This document shows positions 10,225-20,963 of a stretch of DNA of 21,332 nt, in pieces. The notes beneath the pieces were generated by a model. It saw only the letters and a program-made list of their open reading frames with translations. It made no database searches and was not told the DNA's origin. Within the stretch, counting starts at the first letter, position 1, and every line of letters begins with the position of its first letter. The stretch spans positions 1-21,332 of the IMG/VR virus record IMGVR_UViG_3300017967_000272, one strand, 5' to 3'. The DNA comes from a virus. A program made the translations under genes and the position numbers.

Positions 10225-10596
10225 TTATCCCTCTAAGTCTTTTCTTTGATATTCTAAATAAAGTTGATCTTCATCAAGAAAAGGCAAAATTTTTAAATTT
10301 ATAATAAATTTCACAGTATGGTCTAATGCTTCAGTAAATATATCAAGTATTTCTACTCTAGCATCTTTTTGAATCACTCGACGGATTTCGTCCTCAACTT
10401 CTTGTACGACATAAGTATCCAACGGATTCATCAATATATCCTGGATATTTGTACCATAAGACGGCCTCATTACTCTTTCGCCTTTTTTAGCATAAAGCTC
10501 GTTGAGTAAATCAGTCTTCACAAGATCCGCATCAGTAAGTGTGTACGGAGGTCTAATCCTGCCAATTGTACTAAAGCCTCGATATATGTTTGCCAT
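10225..10596 (-). CDS. 25: Baseplate wedge protein gp25 (GPW/gp25 family)
   Basis: gp25 is the small wedge protein that, with gp6 and gp53, forms the core bundle holding the sheath to the baseplate. The protein of 123 residues (from ATG at 10596; MANIYRGFST) has the family pattern: an early LLNELYAKKGERVMRPSYG segment with Arg-Pro in the loop, TNIQDILMNPLD, and a C-terminal beta region with ILPFLDEDQLYLEY. T4 gp25 has 132 residues. An in-frame ATG at 10617 would add seven residues (MYMINID) that overlap a GATAAATA late-promoter box, so I prefer the inner start. That start lies only six bases after the box and has no Shine-Dalgarno, so the mRNA could be nearly leaderless. gp6 follows after one base. 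Confidence 0.92.
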   Translation of the reverse strand: MANIYRGFSTIGRIRPPYTLTDADLVKTDLLNELYAKKGERVMRPSYGTNIQDILMNPLDTYVVQEVEDEIRRVIQKDARVEILDIFTEALDHTVKFIINLKILPFLDEDQLYLEYQRKDLEG

Positions 10597-10601
10597 ATCA
10601 A

Positions 10602-10609
10602 TATTTATC
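10602..10609 (-). promoter_or_regulatory. Putative T4-type late promoter box for gp25-gp6
   Basis: The minus strand reads GATAAATA, one base from the T4 late consensus TATAAATA that is recognised by polymerase carrying gp55. The same box and following TTG occur before the tube cap gene (16788-16781). It would place transcription start about at the gp25 ATG. Promoter function is inferred. Confidence 0.6.
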
Positions 10610-10616
10610 ATATACA

Positions 10617-10634
10617 TTTAAAACTAGTTTTAAA
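10617..10634. repeat. 18-bp perfect palindrome between divergent promoters
   Basis: TTTAAAACTAGTTTTAAA is a perfect inverted repeat with no spacer. Its core AAAACTAGTTTT recurs with one change (AAAACGAGTTTT) at 16799-16810, at the same distance from a late box. The centre is about 59 bases upstream of the expected start of the plus-strand promoter. It may be an operator or activator site; this is inference. Confidence 0.6.
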
Positions 10635-10649: not shown

Positions 10650-10678
10650 TTGACCTACTGCATATTTTCATATATAGT
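10650..10678 (+). promoter_or_regulatory. Sigma70-type early promoter for 10737-11827 gene cluster
   Basis: TTGACC (10650-10655) and TATAGT (10673-10678) are separated by exactly 17 bases, close to the bacterial sigma70 consensus. Expected start is about 10685, leaving a leader of about 50 bases before the first gene at 10737. The direction is opposite to the surrounding late genes. Confidence 0.75.
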
Positions 10679-10736: not shown

Positions 10737-11015
10737 ATGCGTAAAGTAATTGAATATTTTGATAATATTTGTAAAAACGCCGACATTGCTAACAAAAAAC
10801 TAATGCTGTCGGATCAGTCAACTGGTTATAGAAATCGTTTTCAAAAAATGGTATCTAAACGCAATAATCGATATGATTCTATTGGGATTTACGATTATCA
10901 TACTAAGCAACATGTGTTGTTTGAAATGGTAAATCTTGTTGGCCAACCCAAGGATTCTATTCCTCAAGAATTGTATGATATGGAATCTTTGATCAATAAT
11001 GCCATTGCAGAATAA
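10737..11015 (+). CDS. Small hypothetical phage protein (92 aa)
   Basis: I do not recognise this protein. It has 92 residues, is rich in Lys, Asn and Asp, and shows no signal peptide, membrane segment or metal motif. The N-terminal half is basic and probably helical, with RNRFQKMVSKRNNRY; the C-terminal end is acidic (LYDMESLINNAIAE). The start has an AGGAAAA leader at 10728-10734 and lies about 50 bases after a strong sigma70 promoter, so expression early in infection is likely. It is the first of three plus-strand genes set between gp5 and gp25, and its last 17 bases overlap the hydrolase gene, which suggests coupled translation. A small host-takeover or regulatory protein is possible, but nothing in the sequence shows it. 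Confidence 0.75.
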   Translation: MRKVIEYFDNICKNADIANKKLMLSDQSTGYRNRFQKMVSKRNNRYDSIGIYDYHTKQHVLFEMVNLVGQPKDSIPQELYDMESLINNAIAE

Positions 11016-11649
11016 AAATATTATTTTTTTACATGGCACCGGCCAAAGTTCTTTAAGTTATAACTTTTTAGATGTATTTTTACCTGAGCATCGGGTGCAT
11101 TGCCACGAGTATAATGTACAGGATGATATCCATGGCATAGTCAACGATGCTTATCAATTTTATTTGGATAATATGTTTAGTCAACCTGTTTCTATTGTTG
11201 CACACAGTTATGGTTGTTTAATAGGAATATTACTAGCAGAAAAAATTAAACAGATTGAGCATTTTATTGCACTGAGTGCCCCGTGGGGTGGCAGTAGAAC
11301 TGCTGGGTGGCTTAGTATGGTTTTTAGGCAAAGCAAATTATTTGCAAATACTAAACCAGGAAGTGACCTTATCACCTCATTTGCTAACATAACCAACAAT
11401 TATCCGATAACTAATGTTATAACAACAGGTAGTGCATCTAGTGGTAATGCTTTGGCAGGATTTGGATCTTCAGATAATGATGGAATGCTAACAGTTGAAA
11501 CGCAATGTGCTTATCCTAAAAGTTTTAAAAATGTAACCAATATCAAACTACCTCTCAGTCATAATGAAATATTGCTGAGTATGGACACAGTTGATATTAT
11601 TAGGGGAGTAATTTTTGATTATGACAAACCAAAACATAACGTTGAATAA
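10999..11649 (+). CDS. Alpha/beta-hydrolase, lipase/esterase-like
   Basis: The 216-residue protein has the layout of a compact alpha/beta-hydrolase. An oxyanion strand NIIFLHGTG (residues 7-15) is followed by the nucleophile elbow AHSYG (68-72, Ser70), in which the usual first Gly of GxSxG is Ala, as in many lipases. Next come SAPWGG (93-98), a PGSDLI motif (120-125) typical of lipase and PGAP1-like members, an acid site DNDGMLT (Asp161 the likely triad residue) and LSHNEIL (His188). All three catalytic residues can be placed, so it is probably active on an ester or lipid; the substrate is unknown. There is no signal peptide, so it acts inside the cell unless carried in the virion. It overlaps the genes before and after it, consistent with one operon. 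Confidence 0.85.
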   Translation: MPLQNKNIIFLHGTGQSSLSYNFLDVFLPEHRVHCHEYNVQDDIHGIVNDAYQFYLDNMFSQPVSIVAHSYGCLIGILLAEKIKQIEHFIALSAPWGGSRTAGWLSMVFRQSKLFANTKPGSDLITSFANITNNYPITNVITTGSASSGNALAGFGSSDNDGMLTVETQCAYPKSFKNVTNIKLPLSHNEILLSMDTVDIIRGVIFDYDKPKHNVE

Positions 11650-11827
11650 TACCGTCGAAGAAGAATTACGCATAATGCTTTGCGAAGAGCGTAAGATTAT
11701 TGCTGGTTTACAAACTCAAGTAAAGTTTCTTGAACAAAATGTAAGAGAGCTAGAAAATCAAAAATACCAAGCATACGCTCGTCTTGCCGAACTTACTAAA
11801 TTAGATAAAGTACAAACTAGTATTTAA
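11621..11827 (+). CDS. Short coiled-coil protein of unknown function
   Basis: From the ATG at 11621 the product has 68 residues. The middle and C-terminal parts (about residues 10-62) form one long charged helix with heptad-like spacing of Leu/Ile/Val, for example GLQTQVKFLEQNVRELENQ, so a coiled coil is likely. I recognise no family. The gene begins inside the hydrolase gene (29-base overlap). A strong AGGGGAG at 11602-11608 lies 12 bases before this ATG but only 6 bases before an in-frame TTG at 11615, which would add two residues; the choice of start is therefore open. It ends one base from the gp5 stop on the opposite strand, with no visible terminator between the convergent genes. Confidence 0.65.
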   Translation: MTNQNITLNNTVEEELRIMLCEERKIIAGLQTQVKFLEQNVRELENQKYQAYARLAELTKLDKVQTSI

Positions 11828-11828
11828 T

Positions 11829-13373
11829 CTATATTTGATCTGGGGGAATAGGTCTATATTCCCAAGGCTCCCTTGTTGTGATATTTTGAGCAATACTTTT
11901 TATTGAATCTCTATCACCTTCTCGTAGACCTCTTGAAATCAAAGGATCAGTAGTATCAGTTACATCGTCTGGGTCAGTAGGATAATCCCATGCCGGTGGA
12001 GATATTGGTTGATCTTCAAATTCTTGTGTTTGAATTCTGTCAGCATTCATGCCGCTTGTTGCTTGTTCAGCGGCTCCCCCATCATTAAGATGAACTGTAG
12101 AACCTAACACATTATTTCTACCTGATGCTTGAGAATTTATTTCTCCTCCTGATTTTAAATCTAAACCATTAGCACCATACGTTTTTACTTTATTATTAGA
12201 GGCAATGTCTATATTGTTTTTGGCAGTAACAAAAGTATTGGTGCTAGAAACTAAACTTAATTGTCCCTCTTCATCTGTCTGTAATTTAAAATCTTTTTTA
12301 TTGAGCCAATTAGTCATATTACCAACGTTGATATTCAAATCACCTTTTGGATTTCCGTCTACATCAGTAAGACCAGAAGCAGTTTCATATTCTCCTGCAT
12401 TTATAAACACAGAAGAGTTAGCCTCTAAATTTAAATTTTTATCTGATCTAATAGTAACATTTCCTCGAGCTCTCATGTTAAAATCTCTATCAGCATAAAC
12501 ATTTATATCGCCTGCATCGCTTAATTCAACCCATGCTGTACCTGATTTGTTTATAACGTAGATATCGCCAGATGTGTCATCTAATAAAATTTGATGGCCG
12601 CCTCCTGTACGAATTCGAATGTTTCGACTTTGACCTTCTATATCACCATCATCCATTACAAAACTATGGCCTGCTTCTCGATGAGTGTTATCTTTTTTAC
12701 TTGTTCTTAGATTTGCTATTTCCGGTCCTGGGGTTAAAAAGCCAAATACTTGACTGGGAGATTCTCTTCTAGCAGTAGATTTACTTGGTCCTCTTAGATC
12801 ATCGAGAATCAATCCTTGTCTAACAATAGCTCTCGATACATATGGGTGTATTGGCCTTCTTCCTGCAACGCCATGATTTATGTCTTCCTCGTTTCGATTT
12901 TTTTCGGCTACAGGCAAACGTTCTTCTAGACCGTATGCTGGGCCACCTGCATTACCTGGCACCATGTACTGTAATTGATCGGGGAATAAACAGCCTAATA
13001 CTACAGGAAATTTCTTTTTACCGTCTGCAAATGCAACTAGAACAAAGTTACCAGGATCTGGTGGTACCATCCACATACCATATGATTTTTGTGTGTCGTG
13101 ATAACCGTAAATTTGGTCACCTTCACCTATCTTATTAGATGCTGTGCTACCTGCAAATGGACTGCTCCAGTATGCATTATAGTAACCTGCAGGGTCATCT
13201 CTGTCTTTAGACAGCATAGGTATATAAACAGTTAGTCTTCCAGAGTGTGTGTTATCTTTTGGTCTGACAATAATTTCGCCAATATACACACCAAAATCCA
13301 AGTCGGCGTGTTCTCGTAATTTGTCAACAAAGTTCTTTTTGCTACTTTTAAATCTATCTGCTTTATATGCCAT
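11829..13373 (-). CDS. 5: Baseplate central spike, gp5-type, without lysozyme domain
   Basis: gp5 forms the trimeric spike under the tail hub that pierces the outer membrane. Here residues about 28-135 look like the OB-fold domain of gp5/VgrG proteins (VYIGEIIVRPKDNTHSGRL, then YGMWMVPPDPGNFVLVAFAD and KKFPVVLGCLF). Residues about 240-430 form short repeats of the beta-helix needle type (HQILLDDTSGDIYVINKSG, then DINVYADRDFNMRARGNVTI). T4 gp5 carries a lysozyme between these parts; here the roughly 100 residues between them show no lysozyme fold or Glu-Asp-Thr pattern, so the spike appears non-enzymatic, as in VgrG-like spikes. The C-terminal 80 residues are Pro/Asp-rich. The gene starts 11 bases after the hub gene stop, with a weak AGGG upstream. 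Confidence 0.87.
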   Translation of the reverse strand: MAYKADRFKSSKKNFVDKLREHADLDFGVYIGEIIVRPKDNTHSGRLTVYIPMLSKDRDDPAGYYNAYWSSPFAGSTASNKIGEGDQIYGYHDTQKSYGMWMVPPDPGNFVLVAFADGKKKFPVVLGCLFPDQLQYMVPGNAGGPAYGLEERLPVAEKNRNEEDINHGVAGRRPIHPYVSRAIVRQGLILDDLRGPSKSTARRESPSQVFGFLTPGPEIANLRTSKKDNTHREAGHSFVMDDGDIEGQSRNIRIRTGGGHQILLDDTSGDIYVINKSGTAWVELSDAGDINVYADRDFNMRARGNVTIRSDKNLNLEANSSVFINAGEYETASGLTDVDGNPKGDLNINVGNMTNWLNKKDFKLQTDEEGQLSLVSSTNTFVTAKNNIDIASNNKVKTYGANGLDLKSGGEINSQASGRNNVLGSTVHLNDGGAAEQATSGMNADRIQTQEFEDQPISPPAWDYPTDPDDVTDTTDPLISRGLREGDRDSIKSIAQNITTREPWEYRPIPPDQI

Positions 13374-15733: not shown

Positions 15734-16032
15734 TATGCTAATACTCTATCAATAGTTTCTCTAGGTGGTATGTAAATATTCTTACCTGACGTAAAATCCG
15801 CTAGCGGATCTAGTATTTGATCTGGATTACGCAGAGCAAATACCCACCATAGTTGTGTAGTACCATATAAGTCGTGTGCTAATAGGTCAGGTCTATTTTC
15901 ATACTTAGATTCTATTGAATAAAGTCTGTCGCTTGTGCCTTTAGGAATTTTAGGCAATCTATTCACATCAAGATAAAAATCTCTGATTTGTGCATTTTTC
16001 AAAAAACTATTTTTATTATGAAAGGCCGCCAT
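15733..16032 (-). CDS. 53: Baseplate wedge protein gp53 (LysM-like)
   Basis: gp53 is a wedge protein that, with gp6 and gp25, links wedges around the hub. This 99-residue version is about half the length of T4 gp53 (196). The conserved core is clear: YENRPDLLAHDLYGTTQLWW near residues 45-65, then VFALRNPDQILDPLADF and a closing GKNIYIP. This is the LysM-like pattern shared by short gp53 proteins of marine T4-like phages. Both ends are overlapping TAATG junctions: its ATG overlaps the stop of the tube cap gene and its stop overlaps the hub ATG, so the three genes are probably translated as a coupled set. An AAGGA lies nine bases before the start. Confidence 0.88.
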   Translation of the reverse strand: MAAFHNKNSFLKNAQIRDFYLDVNRLPKIPKGTSDRLYSIESKYENRPDLLAHDLYGTTQLWWVFALRNPDQILDPLADFTSGKNIYIPPRETIDRVLA

Positions 16033-16763
16033 TAAATAAATCCTTGGTTATATTGCTTACCGCTTGTAAAAGCATTAAGATCAAATCTTTTTCTTGTTTT
16101 CTTATATGTGTACTGTGGTGCTAATTCAATCATTATACTGGTTTCTGAAGGCATGTATGTAGTAGTGCCTTTAAATTTAACAGGAACATAATCTACGTCA
16201 GGTTGTAATTGGAAGTTGTAGTTTCTAATAATTACTGGCACTTTATTAAATCCAAACTCTCCTAAATATTCAAATAACAATACTGGAGGAGGTGTACCAT
16301 AGTATCCAGAAGTTACTGCACTGTCACCATAATATGCCTTAGTCACAGTTCTCAAAAAATGGAACAATGCTAACATGTATTGGCCCTCTTCTATAGTTTG
16401 TGCTGTGAATGTGCCTGTAATTGGCAAGGTTGGTGGCCTTGAGCTAATGTATGTATAGAAAGGATAGTTAGATCCATGTTGTTGTGCTTCATTGTAATCT
16501 ACTGACCCTTGTAAAAAGATGTCAGGTGTATATGGAAATATAATTCCGCCTTTATCTTGCAATGGTTTTAGTATACTATCTTGTACTTCGTTGCCGTCAC
16601 TATCAACTAAACCGTATGCCCATCTTTCTCCGCCTCTTTTTGGTCGTATTCTTGCTCGCCAATCAACATCCTTGAATGTTTTTGTCTCGGTTCGTTTTAC
16701 CAAATCGTCAAATTGTTGACTTGGGACTACGGTACTAGTTGTAAATTTGGTCTCTTCTGCCAT
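16032..16763 (-). CDS. Baseplate tail-tube cap/initiator protein (gp48/gp54 type)
   Basis: In T4, gp48 and gp54 sit on the hub and start polymerisation of the tail tube. This 243-residue protein resembles that group in FTAQTIEEGQYMLALFHFLR, then a TPPPVLLFEYLGEFGFNKVP block and VIIRNYNFQLQPDVDYVPV, ending with a strand-rich section (SIMIELAPQYTYKKTR). It is shorter than T4 gp48 (364) and gp54 (320), and I cannot say which of the two it matches; only one such gene is in the window. The ATG at 16763 has AGGAG at 16774-16770. A GTG at 16790 in frame would start inside the late-promoter box, so I reject it. It is the first gene of the baseplate module here. Confidence 0.75.
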   Translation of the reverse strand: MAEETKFTTSTVVPSQQFDDLVKRTETKTFKDVDWRARIRPKRGGERWAYGLVDSDGNEVQDSILKPLQDKGGIIFPYTPDIFLQGSVDYNEAQQHGSNYPFYTYISSRPPTLPITGTFTAQTIEEGQYMLALFHFLRTVTKAYYGDSAVTSGYYGTPPPVLLFEYLGEFGFNKVPVIIRNYNFQLQPDVDYVPVKFKGTTTYMPSETSIMIELAPQYTYKKTRKRFDLNAFTSGKQYNQGFI

Positions 16764-16780
16764 AACTATCTCCTGCACAA

Positions 16781-16798
16781 TATTTATCACGATAAATA
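16781..16798. promoter_or_regulatory. Back-to-back T4-type late promoter boxes (inverted repeat)
   Basis: TATTTATCACGATAAATA is an inverted repeat with a two-base spacer that places GATAAATA on both strands. The minus-strand copy (16788-16781) would start transcription near 16775, just before the AGGAG and ATG of the tube cap gene. The plus-strand copy (16791-16798) faces gp55 and might give late read-through of the recombination genes. Function is inferred from the T4 late consensus TATAAATA. Confidence 0.6.
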
Positions 16799-18760: not shown

Positions 18761-20538
18761 TGCTGACTATTAAAAATGTAAGTGCAAAAAACTTTATGAG
18801 TATAGGTAATAATACTCAAGCAGTAAACTTTAATACTGAATCTTTAACATTAGTATTGGGGCATAATTTAGATCTTGGAGGTGATGGTAGTAGAAACGGT
18901 ACAGGTAAAACTACAATTATCAACGCACTAAGTTATGCACTATACGGTGATGCTTTAACAAACATTCGCAAAGACAATCTCATAAACAAAACAAATGGTA
19001 AAGGCATGATTGTTTCTGTAGATTTTGAGATCAATGGAATTGAGTATCGTATTGAACGTGGAAGACGACCAAATGTTTTGAGATTTTTTATAAATGGTGC
19101 TGAAAATGCTGATGATGAACAACAAGGCGACAGCAGAGAAACACAAAAAGAAATAGAAAAAATAATTGGCTTCCCTCACAATATGTTCAAGCATTTAATT
19201 GCTCTAAATACATATACTGAACCTTTCCTTAGCATGAAAACAAACGATCAACGTGATATGATCGAGCAACTATTAGGTATTACTGAAATTAGTGCAAAAG
19301 CAGAAGTGCTTAAAGAAAAATTAAAAGAAACCAGAGATAGTATCAAAGAAGAAGAGTTGCGTATTAGTGCTGTTAAAAACAGTAACGAAAGAGTAGGTAA
19401 GAACATTGTTGAGATTGAAAATCGTAGCAAACTTTGGACTAAAAACAAACAAGATAAAATCACTGAGCTACAACAAAGTTTAGATGTTTTACAACAAACT
19501 GACATTGATCAAGAATTAAAAAATCACAAAATTATTACAGAAGTAAACGAAAAATATTTAACAATAAAAGGCTTACAAAGTGAGCAAACTAATTTGCAAA
19601 GTAGTTTACTAAGAAGCGATAACAACTTAGAAACATTACAACTTAATATACAAAAAGCACAAGAAGGTGTTTGCCCTACTTGCGAACAAAGTACTGCACA
19701 CCTAGACACACACGAAGCCTACACACAGGACTTGCAAGATAAACTAAAAGTAGAAGAAGAATATAACAGTGAACTAAATAGTAAAGTAAAAACAATTCAG
19801 TCAAAGATTGATGACTTTGGTGAATTGCCGGAAACACCAATTACTTTTTATAATAATTTAGAAGATGCATTACAGCACAGGCATAATGTTGAAACGTTAC
19901 AATCTCAAATAGAAGAAAAAACAAACGAAGTAAATCCATATATTGAACAAATTGATAGTCTAAAAAAGACTGCATTGGAAGAGATAGATTACGAACTTAT
20001 AAATGATTTAACCTTTTTAAAAGAACATCAAGAATTTTTACATAAGTTGCTTACCAGCAAAGACAGTTTTATTCGTAAAAAGATTATAGATCAGAATTTA
20101 CAATATTTAAACTATAGGTTAAATCATTACTTAGACAAGTTAGGATTACCACATGATGTTAAATTTAACAGTGACTTGTCAGTAGATATTACAGAATACG
20201 GTAGAGATTTAGATTTTGATAACTTGAGCAGAGGTGAACGTAATAGACTTATACTCGGTATGAGTTGGGCATTCAGAGACATTTATGAAAGTTTAAATCA
20301 ACCAATGAATTTGATGTGTATAGACGAACTGGTAGACAGTGGCATGGATACCACTGGTGTTGAAAATGCATTGGCAGTTCTTAAGAAGATGGGTCGAGAG
20401 TCCAAGAAAAATGTGTTCCTTATTTCGCACAAAGAAGAGTTACAAGGTAGAGTAAACAATGTACTATATGTTGTCAAGGAGGGAGGATTTACTTCATATT
20501 CGAATGATATTGAAATCCTTGACTCGGAGAATGGATGA
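18760..20538 (+). CDS. 46: Recombination ATPase subunit gp46 (Rad50/SbcC-like)
   Basis: This SMC-family ATPase drives and controls the gp47 nuclease. The N-terminal lobe has a Walker A ending NGTGKTT (residues 46-52). Long charged coiled-coil arms occupy roughly 170-450, with a zinc hook CPTC (Cys305, Cys308) near the middle for dimerisation. The C-terminal lobe carries the ABC signature LSRGERNRL (489-497) and Walker B LMCIDEL with Glu523 as the likely catalytic base. The length of 592 residues is close to T4 gp46 (560). Every key residue is present, so it is intact. It overlaps gp47 by one base and the next gene by four. Confidence 0.96.
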   Translation: MLTIKNVSAKNFMSIGNNTQAVNFNTESLTLVLGHNLDLGGDGSRNGTGKTTIINALSYALYGDALTNIRKDNLINKTNGKGMIVSVDFEINGIEYRIERGRRPNVLRFFINGAENADDEQQGDSRETQKEIEKIIGFPHNMFKHLIALNTYTEPFLSMKTNDQRDMIEQLLGITEISAKAEVLKEKLKETRDSIKEEELRISAVKNSNERVGKNIVEIENRSKLWTKNKQDKITELQQSLDVLQQTDIDQELKNHKIITEVNEKYLTIKGLQSEQTNLQSSLLRSDNNLETLQLNIQKAQEGVCPTCEQSTAHLDTHEAYTQDLQDKLKVEEEYNSELNSKVKTIQSKIDDFGELPETPITFYNNLEDALQHRHNVETLQSQIEEKTNEVNPYIEQIDSLKKTALEEIDYELINDLTFLKEHQEFLHKLLTSKDSFIRKKIIDQNLQYLNYRLNHYLDKLGLPHDVKFNSDLSVDITEYGRDLDFDNLSRGERNRLILGMSWAFRDIYESLNQPMNLMCIDELVDSGMDTTGVENALAVLKKMGRESKKNVFLISHKEELQGRVNNVLYVVKEGGFTSYSNDIEILDSENG

Positions 20539-20963
20539 GTGCTGATTGGACATATAAAGGTAAAAAAATAGATGTTATACCCGAAGAATACGAAGGTTTT
20601 GTGTACCTTATCACTAATAAGACTAATGGCAAAAAATATATCGGTAAAAAACTTGCTAGGTTCAAAACAACCAAACCACCCTTAAAAGGCAAAAAGAACA
20701 AACGTCGAGGTACCAAAGAAAGCGACTGGCGTACATATTGGGGTAGTAGTGATCATTTGATTGAGGATGTAGCAAATTTAGGTGAGAATAACTTTACCAG
20801 AGAAATATTAGAGTTATGTACGACTAGGGGTGTAATGAGCTACATAGAAGCAGAATTACAATTCAAACACAAAGTATTACTATCTGATGATTATTACAAT
20901 GGAATTATCAACTGTCGTATAGGTGGTTCAAAAATTCTTAAAGAAAGTTTGAAAGATAGATAA
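20535..20963 (+). CDS. GIY-YIG-type nuclease, phage accessory protein
   Basis: The 142-residue protein has the N-terminal pattern of the GIY-YIG fold: FVYLITNKTNGKKYIGKK (22-39), where VYL stands for GIY and YIG is kept. A basic loop (KPPLKGKKNKRRG) follows, then DWRTYWGSS with a candidate catalytic Arg, NNFTREILELC, and YIEAE with the candidate catalytic Glu. The domain takes up almost the whole protein and there is no separate DNA-binding domain of the kind found in homing enzymes such as I-TevI. The ATG overlaps the gp46 stop (ATGA), so it is translated with the recombination genes. It may be a Seg-like homing nuclease or a nuclease that works with gp46/47; the sequence does not decide. 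Confidence 0.8.
   Translation: MSADWTYKGKKIDVIPEEYEGFVYLITNKTNGKKYIGKKLARFKTTKPPLKGKKNKRRGTKESDWRTYWGSSDHLIEDVANLGENNFTREILELCTTRGVMSYIEAELQFKHKVLLSDDYYNGIINCRIGGSKILKESLKDR

Follow-up and report, generated by a model that had tools for sequence, protein, structure and literature searches.

We found that a metagenomic virus contig of 21,332 nucleotides (in the following called the window) encodes a small alpha/beta-hydrolase on the strand opposite to the baseplate genes of a T4-like jumbo phage. The protein belongs to a new family within a well-known superfamily. The family has neither a PHROG of its own nor a known isolated carrier, and combines an intact active site with a single genomic slot and a long divergence; its promoter pattern is that of an early gene. 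On balance, we regard the protein as an early, cytoplasmic, and probably active serine lipase, phospholipase A, or carboxylesterase, which would cut a host lipid or acyl ester. Provided that the protein is active, the phage would possess an enzyme for editing the lipids or acyl esters of its host from within, early in infection. Phage lipases have rarely been described, and the two examples found in the literature searched are virion proteins. With 216 amino acids and no signal peptide, the hydrolase is a simple target for bench experiments.

A predicted alpha/beta-hydrolase with an invariant catalytic triad

The hydrolase gene starts with an ATG and extends from position 10999 to 11649 (+), exactly where the preliminary description of the sequence had placed it. 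The nucleophile Ser70 is encoded by the AGT codon at positions 11206–11208 (+) within the motif AHSYG, the acid Asp161 by the GAT codon at 11479–11481 (+) within NDG, and the catalytic His188 by the CAT codon at 11560–11562 (+) within SHNE. An alignment of 59 rows was generated, consisting of the 58 distinct hydrolase sequences and the row of the window. The residues H12-G13 at the end of the oxyanion strand, H69-S70-x-G72, P95, G98, N150, N160-D161-G162, Q169, and H188 were invariant in 59/59 rows.

The AF2 model, based on 11 sequences (pLDDT 81, pTM 0.84), has an alpha/beta-hydrolase fold with the order beta3-alphaA-beta4-alphaB-beta5-Ser-alphaC-beta6-cap-beta7-Asp-alphaE-beta8-His-alphaF. 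According to a DSSP analysis of the model, Ser70 lies in a G/A-H-S-x-G elbow after beta5, Asp161 between beta7 and alphaE, and His188 after beta8, as in the superfamily; this placement was judged by topology and conservation, and the loop of residues 147–157 before Asp161 has a pLDDT below 50. All 1000 of 1000 aligned chains reached a Z score of at least 8, with a top Z of 21. The window protein also matched Pfam Abhydrolase_6 (2.1e-5), below the curated cut-off. The fold, the profile matches, and the conserved triad thus bear out the hydrolase identity and the catalytic set that had been proposed from the sequence.

No signal sequence is apparent, and the chain begins directly with the first strand. 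No stretch has the hydrophobicity typical of a transmembrane segment (maximal 19-residue mean 1.44). Therefore, the hydrolase should be cytoplasmic. The short cap helices (residues ~100–130) are moderately amphipathic, with moments of 0.30–0.49, and could shield an acyl chain, although similar values were obtained for helices in other parts of the protein. The motif PGSDLI, to which the preliminary description had drawn attention, comprises residues 120–125.

Lipid esters as the probable substrates

The family comprises two subgroups. Subgroup A is window-like, has the motifs HG[ST]G, H-S-Y-G, and APW-G-GS, and is preceded by the small gene p92. Subgroup B is about 34% identical, has the motifs HGAN, HSFGG, and TPW-EGT, and lacks p92. 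Subgroup B exceeded the cut-offs of Abhydrolase_1 (PF00561) and PGAP1 (PF07819), for the latter with 36–38 bits versus a cut-off of 24.3, whereas the window protein had no PGAP1 match up to an E-value of 1. When the family profile was compared with the PDB, a "putative lipase" (7x2p) was found at 4.3e-6, followed mostly by lipases and related hydrolases. In the comparison with class 2 lipases, LipA chains matched the profile weakly (E-values of 0.02–0.1), and Lipase_2 was absent from the Pfam matches up to an E-value of 1. In PHROGs v4, the window protein had no significant match, and subgroup B had only local matches of 35–40 residues to esterase/lipase PHROGs; none of them was a whole-length match.

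Structural comparisons pointed in the same direction. The best VIA-align match was the lipase BlEst2 (Z 21.2, 202 aligned residues, 2.8 Å), followed by the phospholipase PlaB (20.1), a Streptomyces lipase (19.6), and a family I.5 lipase (19.6); rows that were not more than one Z apart were counted as tied. These top-ranked enzymes cover 192–208 residues at Z scores of 19.6–21.2, and LCAT was found at 18.2. Matches among predicted viral structures included a PGAP1-like giant-virus protein and an unnamed protein of 151 amino acids with 26% identity. The suggested resemblance to PGAP1 and to lipases was thus recovered, with subgroup B above the PGAP1 cut-off and lipases and phospholipases leading the structural matches.

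However, the thioesterases TesA (Z 19.3), palmitoyl-protein thioesterase (18.6), and BorB (18.3) matched nearly as well as the lipases, so the fold alone does not fix a lipid ester as the substrate. The protein may instead be an esterase or thioesterase for a small soluble substrate, such as acyl-CoA, acyl-ACP, a signal molecule, or a host-made inhibitor. It might, for instance, divert the metabolism of the host or abolish a defence signal. TesA, BorB, the carboxylesterase Est30 (17.8), and a feruloyl esterase (18.3) are all within about 3.5 Z of the best lipase, the top Foldseek match is the thioesterase NocB, and a cytoplasmic protein with early-type expression would fit. Nevertheless, lipase-like proteins account for the top VIA-align ranks and the profile matches, the sole specific Pfam match (PGAP1) is lipase-like as well, and PADLOC yielded no significant match. 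We thus consider a soluble substrate possible but rather unlikely; the models favor a lipase or phospholipase, while an esterase or thioesterase would also fit.

The hydrolase is part of an early-type cassette within a late operon

The slot that contains the hydrolase is bordered by the genes for a gp25-like baseplate wedge subunit (10225–10617, −) and a gp5-like baseplate hub subunit (11829–13373, −). Both are encoded on the minus strand, so the gene is indeed directed against the late baseplate genes, as had been noted. The hydrolase is the middle gene of a cassette of three overlapping genes, p92-hyd-p68. The first, p92 (10737–11015, +), encodes a small protein, and the last, p68 (11621–11827, +), encodes a short protein. 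The end of p92 overlaps the start of the hydrolase gene by 17 nt, and the end of the latter overlaps the start of p68 by 29 nt, which suggests coupled translation. The gp5 gene is convergent with the cassette, with a gap of one nucleotide after p68.

Both p92 and p68 are conserved families, and tblastn searches revealed p92 in slots like that of locus L018 and p68 in slots like that of locus L020. The sequence pattern of p68 indicates a likely coiled coil; it has a conserved motif, NTLEEELRxML, and a weak SlyX-like match. Homologues of p92 occur in phages without the hydrolase, including the isolate Paride (L011, 9699–9938, −). A p92 model (pLDDT 87) had no significant match in the PDB and therefore gave no clue to the role of the operon.

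On one side, gp6 comes next in the baseplate operon, together with a structural gene that has at least 1943 codons and is cut by the contig end; on the other side are genes for a large virion protein, gp53, and a further virion protein. Beyond the operon, the plus strand encodes a gp55-like late sigma factor, gp47/gp46-like proteins (SbcD/SbcC), which were named by synteny with L011, and a SegE-like protein. The last of these is a GIY-YIG protein (20535–20963, +; PF19835, 1.1e-35), and its gene adjoins the gp46-like gene. The gp5 protein of the window has an OB domain and a beta-helix-like tail; a lysozyme, as in T4 gp5, was not matched in Pfam.

By gp5, the nearest sequenced relatives are the jumbo phages Paride/PA5oct, SCTP-2, and Atu_ph07 (29–36% identity), and no near DNA match to the window was found among the phage records. 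On the gp5 side, these jumbo phages have the same gene order as the window; their slots carry other small genes. The phage is a jumbo T4-like relative of phages such as Paride/PA5oct and not a small marine T4-like phage. In other jumbo phages, the gp5-gp25 interval contains an annotated exonuclease gene in Phosso (L014, 11391–12008) or genes for proteins of about 157 amino acids (L028–L050). As the opposite-strand genes differ, the interval has the appearance of a general early-gene site.

A sigma70-like promoter, TTGACC-N17-TATAGT, is located at positions 10650–10678 (+) and is conserved in relatives. The preliminary description had assigned an early promoter to the hydrolase itself; an early-type promoter is present, but it precedes p92 and not the hydrolase gene directly, and thus it would serve the three-gene operon. 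Of 70 distinct slots, 66 have a TTGAC-type −35 box and, at 16–18 nt, a TATAAT-type −10 box before the first cassette gene; in the controls, for which stretches were drawn at random from the same loci, the proportion was 5%. A promoter score of at least 10 of 12 was reached in 67/70 slots versus 6.4% of the controls. About 6 nt separate the −10 box from the start codon of the hydrolase gene in subgroup B.

A different element is associated with the late genes. The gp25 gene has a late-promoter-like box, GATAAATA, at positions 10602–10609 (−), opposite to the cassette. This box was found in 69/70 slots versus 1.2% of the controls, and it was not found on the cassette strand at the slot. Further GATAAATA boxes are located at 16781–16788 (−) and 16791–16798 (+). 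The pattern DATAAATA occurs at three sites in the window, while 12 would be expected by chance; each of them is GATAAATA, and all three mark operon starts, namely those of gp25, of the gene at 16032–16790, and of the gp55-like gene. The late promoter box of T4 is TATAAATA. By analogy, GATAAATA is likely the late promoter of the jumbo-phage group around the window, and the pattern fits a cassette under early control amid late genes.

These results also bear on the possibility that the hydrolase is packed into the tail or acts late in disrupting the envelope. Its position within the baseplate operon would agree with such a virion-associated or lysis enzyme, and lipase-like proteins have been found in virions of the jumbo phage XacN1 (ORF279; PMC5852040) and the cyanophage S-CREM1 (ORF157; PMC9964418). 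However, the cassette opposes the late genes, and both the conserved early-type promoter and the failure to find a late-type box on the same strand speak against a role confined to late lysis. In addition, the protein has no apparent secretion signal. A profile search of the whole XacN1 record gave no match to the hydrolase family; any membership of the XacN1 lipase is thus below detection. We regard a virion or lysis function as improbable.

The family is conserved at one slot and under apparent purifying selection

The hydrolase is carried at 160 IMG/VR loci, which were gathered by direct search followed by gp5-guided and profile-guided scans; some contigs enter this count as more than one locus. 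They encode 58 distinct full-length proteins with identities down to 33%. All 160 loci share the gp5-gp25 slot; both genes flank the hydrolase on the opposite strand in 145 loci, and one of them does so in the other 15. The direct search yielded close copies in four other contigs, and homologues with 59–33% identity occupy the same slot. The orthologues that had been proposed to be sought between gp5 and gp25 are thus present in many related phages. Pairwise dN/dS values were 0.05–0.23, with the exception of one nearly identical pair, which points to purifying selection. The close copies, the homologues in the slot, the conserved triad, and the purifying selection show that the ORF is not a product of chance.

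Related phages outside the hydrolase clades either have an empty slot (5–27 bases) or carry p92, p68, or both in the absence of the hydrolase. Many relatives within the same clade also lack the hydrolase. On a tree of gp5, gp25, and gp6, in which long branches were joined and the deep part is weakly supported, the presence of the hydrolase needs three changes, which suggests that the gene is old and has mostly been kept vertically.

All known carriers are metagenome contigs. A protein search with the window protein against 50,697 phage and 72,556 plasmid records gave nothing useful, and subgroup B had only short local matches to lipases and hydrolases. No isolated phage with the hydrolase was found among these 50,697 records, and it was not found in the records of Paride, Phosso, or XacN1. 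A scan of genome contigs for close relatives yielded no hydrolase, and a profile scan revealed two remote cellular proteins with 25–38% local identity. As only such remote matches were obtained, a recent host donor was not identified. The absence from many same-clade relatives and from the phage records would be compatible with a relic that has no catalytic function, or with a passenger gene that is mobile and of no steady use, but the invariance of the triad and oxyanion residues in 59/59 rows, the low dN/dS values, the fixed position, and the few changes (three) on the phage tree make this explanation very hard to sustain.

A possible mechanism

The computational results support the fold, the invariance of the triad, the purifying selection, the fixed synteny, and the pattern of promoters; the enzymatic activity, the lipid substrate, the timing, and the purpose are inferred. 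For the early lipase, phospholipase A, or carboxylesterase that we prefer, the following course of events can be envisaged. A host-type sigma70 promoter would drive early synthesis of the hydrolase from the p92-hyd-p68 operon, which has been inserted in opposite orientation into the late baseplate operon. With His188 and Asp161 as activating residues, Ser70 would attack the acyl ester of either a host lipid or an acyl carrier, the cap helices would cover the acyl site, and the ester would likely be hydrolyzed via an acyl-Ser70 intermediate. Most likely, stores of lipid or acyl esters in the host would thereby be remodeled or degraded early, to the benefit of phage growth. More speculatively, an entire clade of aquatic T4-like jumbo phages might use an early phospholipase or lipase together with two small partners encoded in its operon to remodel, from within the cell, the inner membrane or the lipid stores of the host as a permanent strategy of infection; we propose this version only tentatively.

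Comparison with known systems

The literature searched on phage-encoded lipases, phospholipases, and esterases yielded no described counterpart of the hydrolase. XacN1 ORF279 and S-CREM1 ORF157 share with it that they are phage-encoded and annotated as a lipase or a distant lipase homologue. Phospholipase effectors are used in a defence against jumbo phages (PMC13282480), and PlaF is a membrane-bound bacterial phospholipase that edits the lipids of its own cell (PMC9132575). The two phage proteins and the defence effectors may be viewed as precedents for lipid enzymes in phage biology; none of the four is a demonstrated member of the hydrolase family. A small alpha/beta-hydrolase of a related jumbo phage, PBI_SCTP2_3 of Salicola phage SCTP-2, matched the profile weakly (9.8e-5). 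It was rejected as a family member, as it belongs to UPF0227 (3.3e-12), is encoded at another genome position, and has an Asn at the position of the nucleophile (GCNLGS). This exchange of the nucleophile Ser makes PBI_SCTP2_3 (L178, 597–1172, −) a possible pseudoenzyme.

PGAP1-like proteins and the Abhydrolase_1 and Abhydrolase_6 (PF12697) families have the same nucleophile elbow, the same [ST]-[AT]-P-W-G/E-G motif after beta6, and the same order of catalytic residues. The window hydrolase itself, however, reaches none of the cut-offs, has only 216 amino acids, and has no transmembrane segments. GPI-anchor substrates, on which a GPI inositol-deacylase would act, are not known from bacteria.

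The closest structural likeness is to bacterial lipases. Nearly the whole hydrolase model could be aligned with BlEst2 (6wpy) and I.5 lipases (5ce5) at 2.7–2.9 Å, and family I.2 lipases (1cvl, 4lip) were also among the best structural matches. These lipases are secreted and mostly larger, whereas the hydrolase, which is 12–17% identical to them, is shorter and has no signal peptide. Legionella PlaB (6zth, 6zti) ranked second, with a Z score of about 20 and 207–208 aligned residues. The identity is 18%, and the PlaB chains comprise 464–470 residues, including an additional portion that is absent from the hydrolase.
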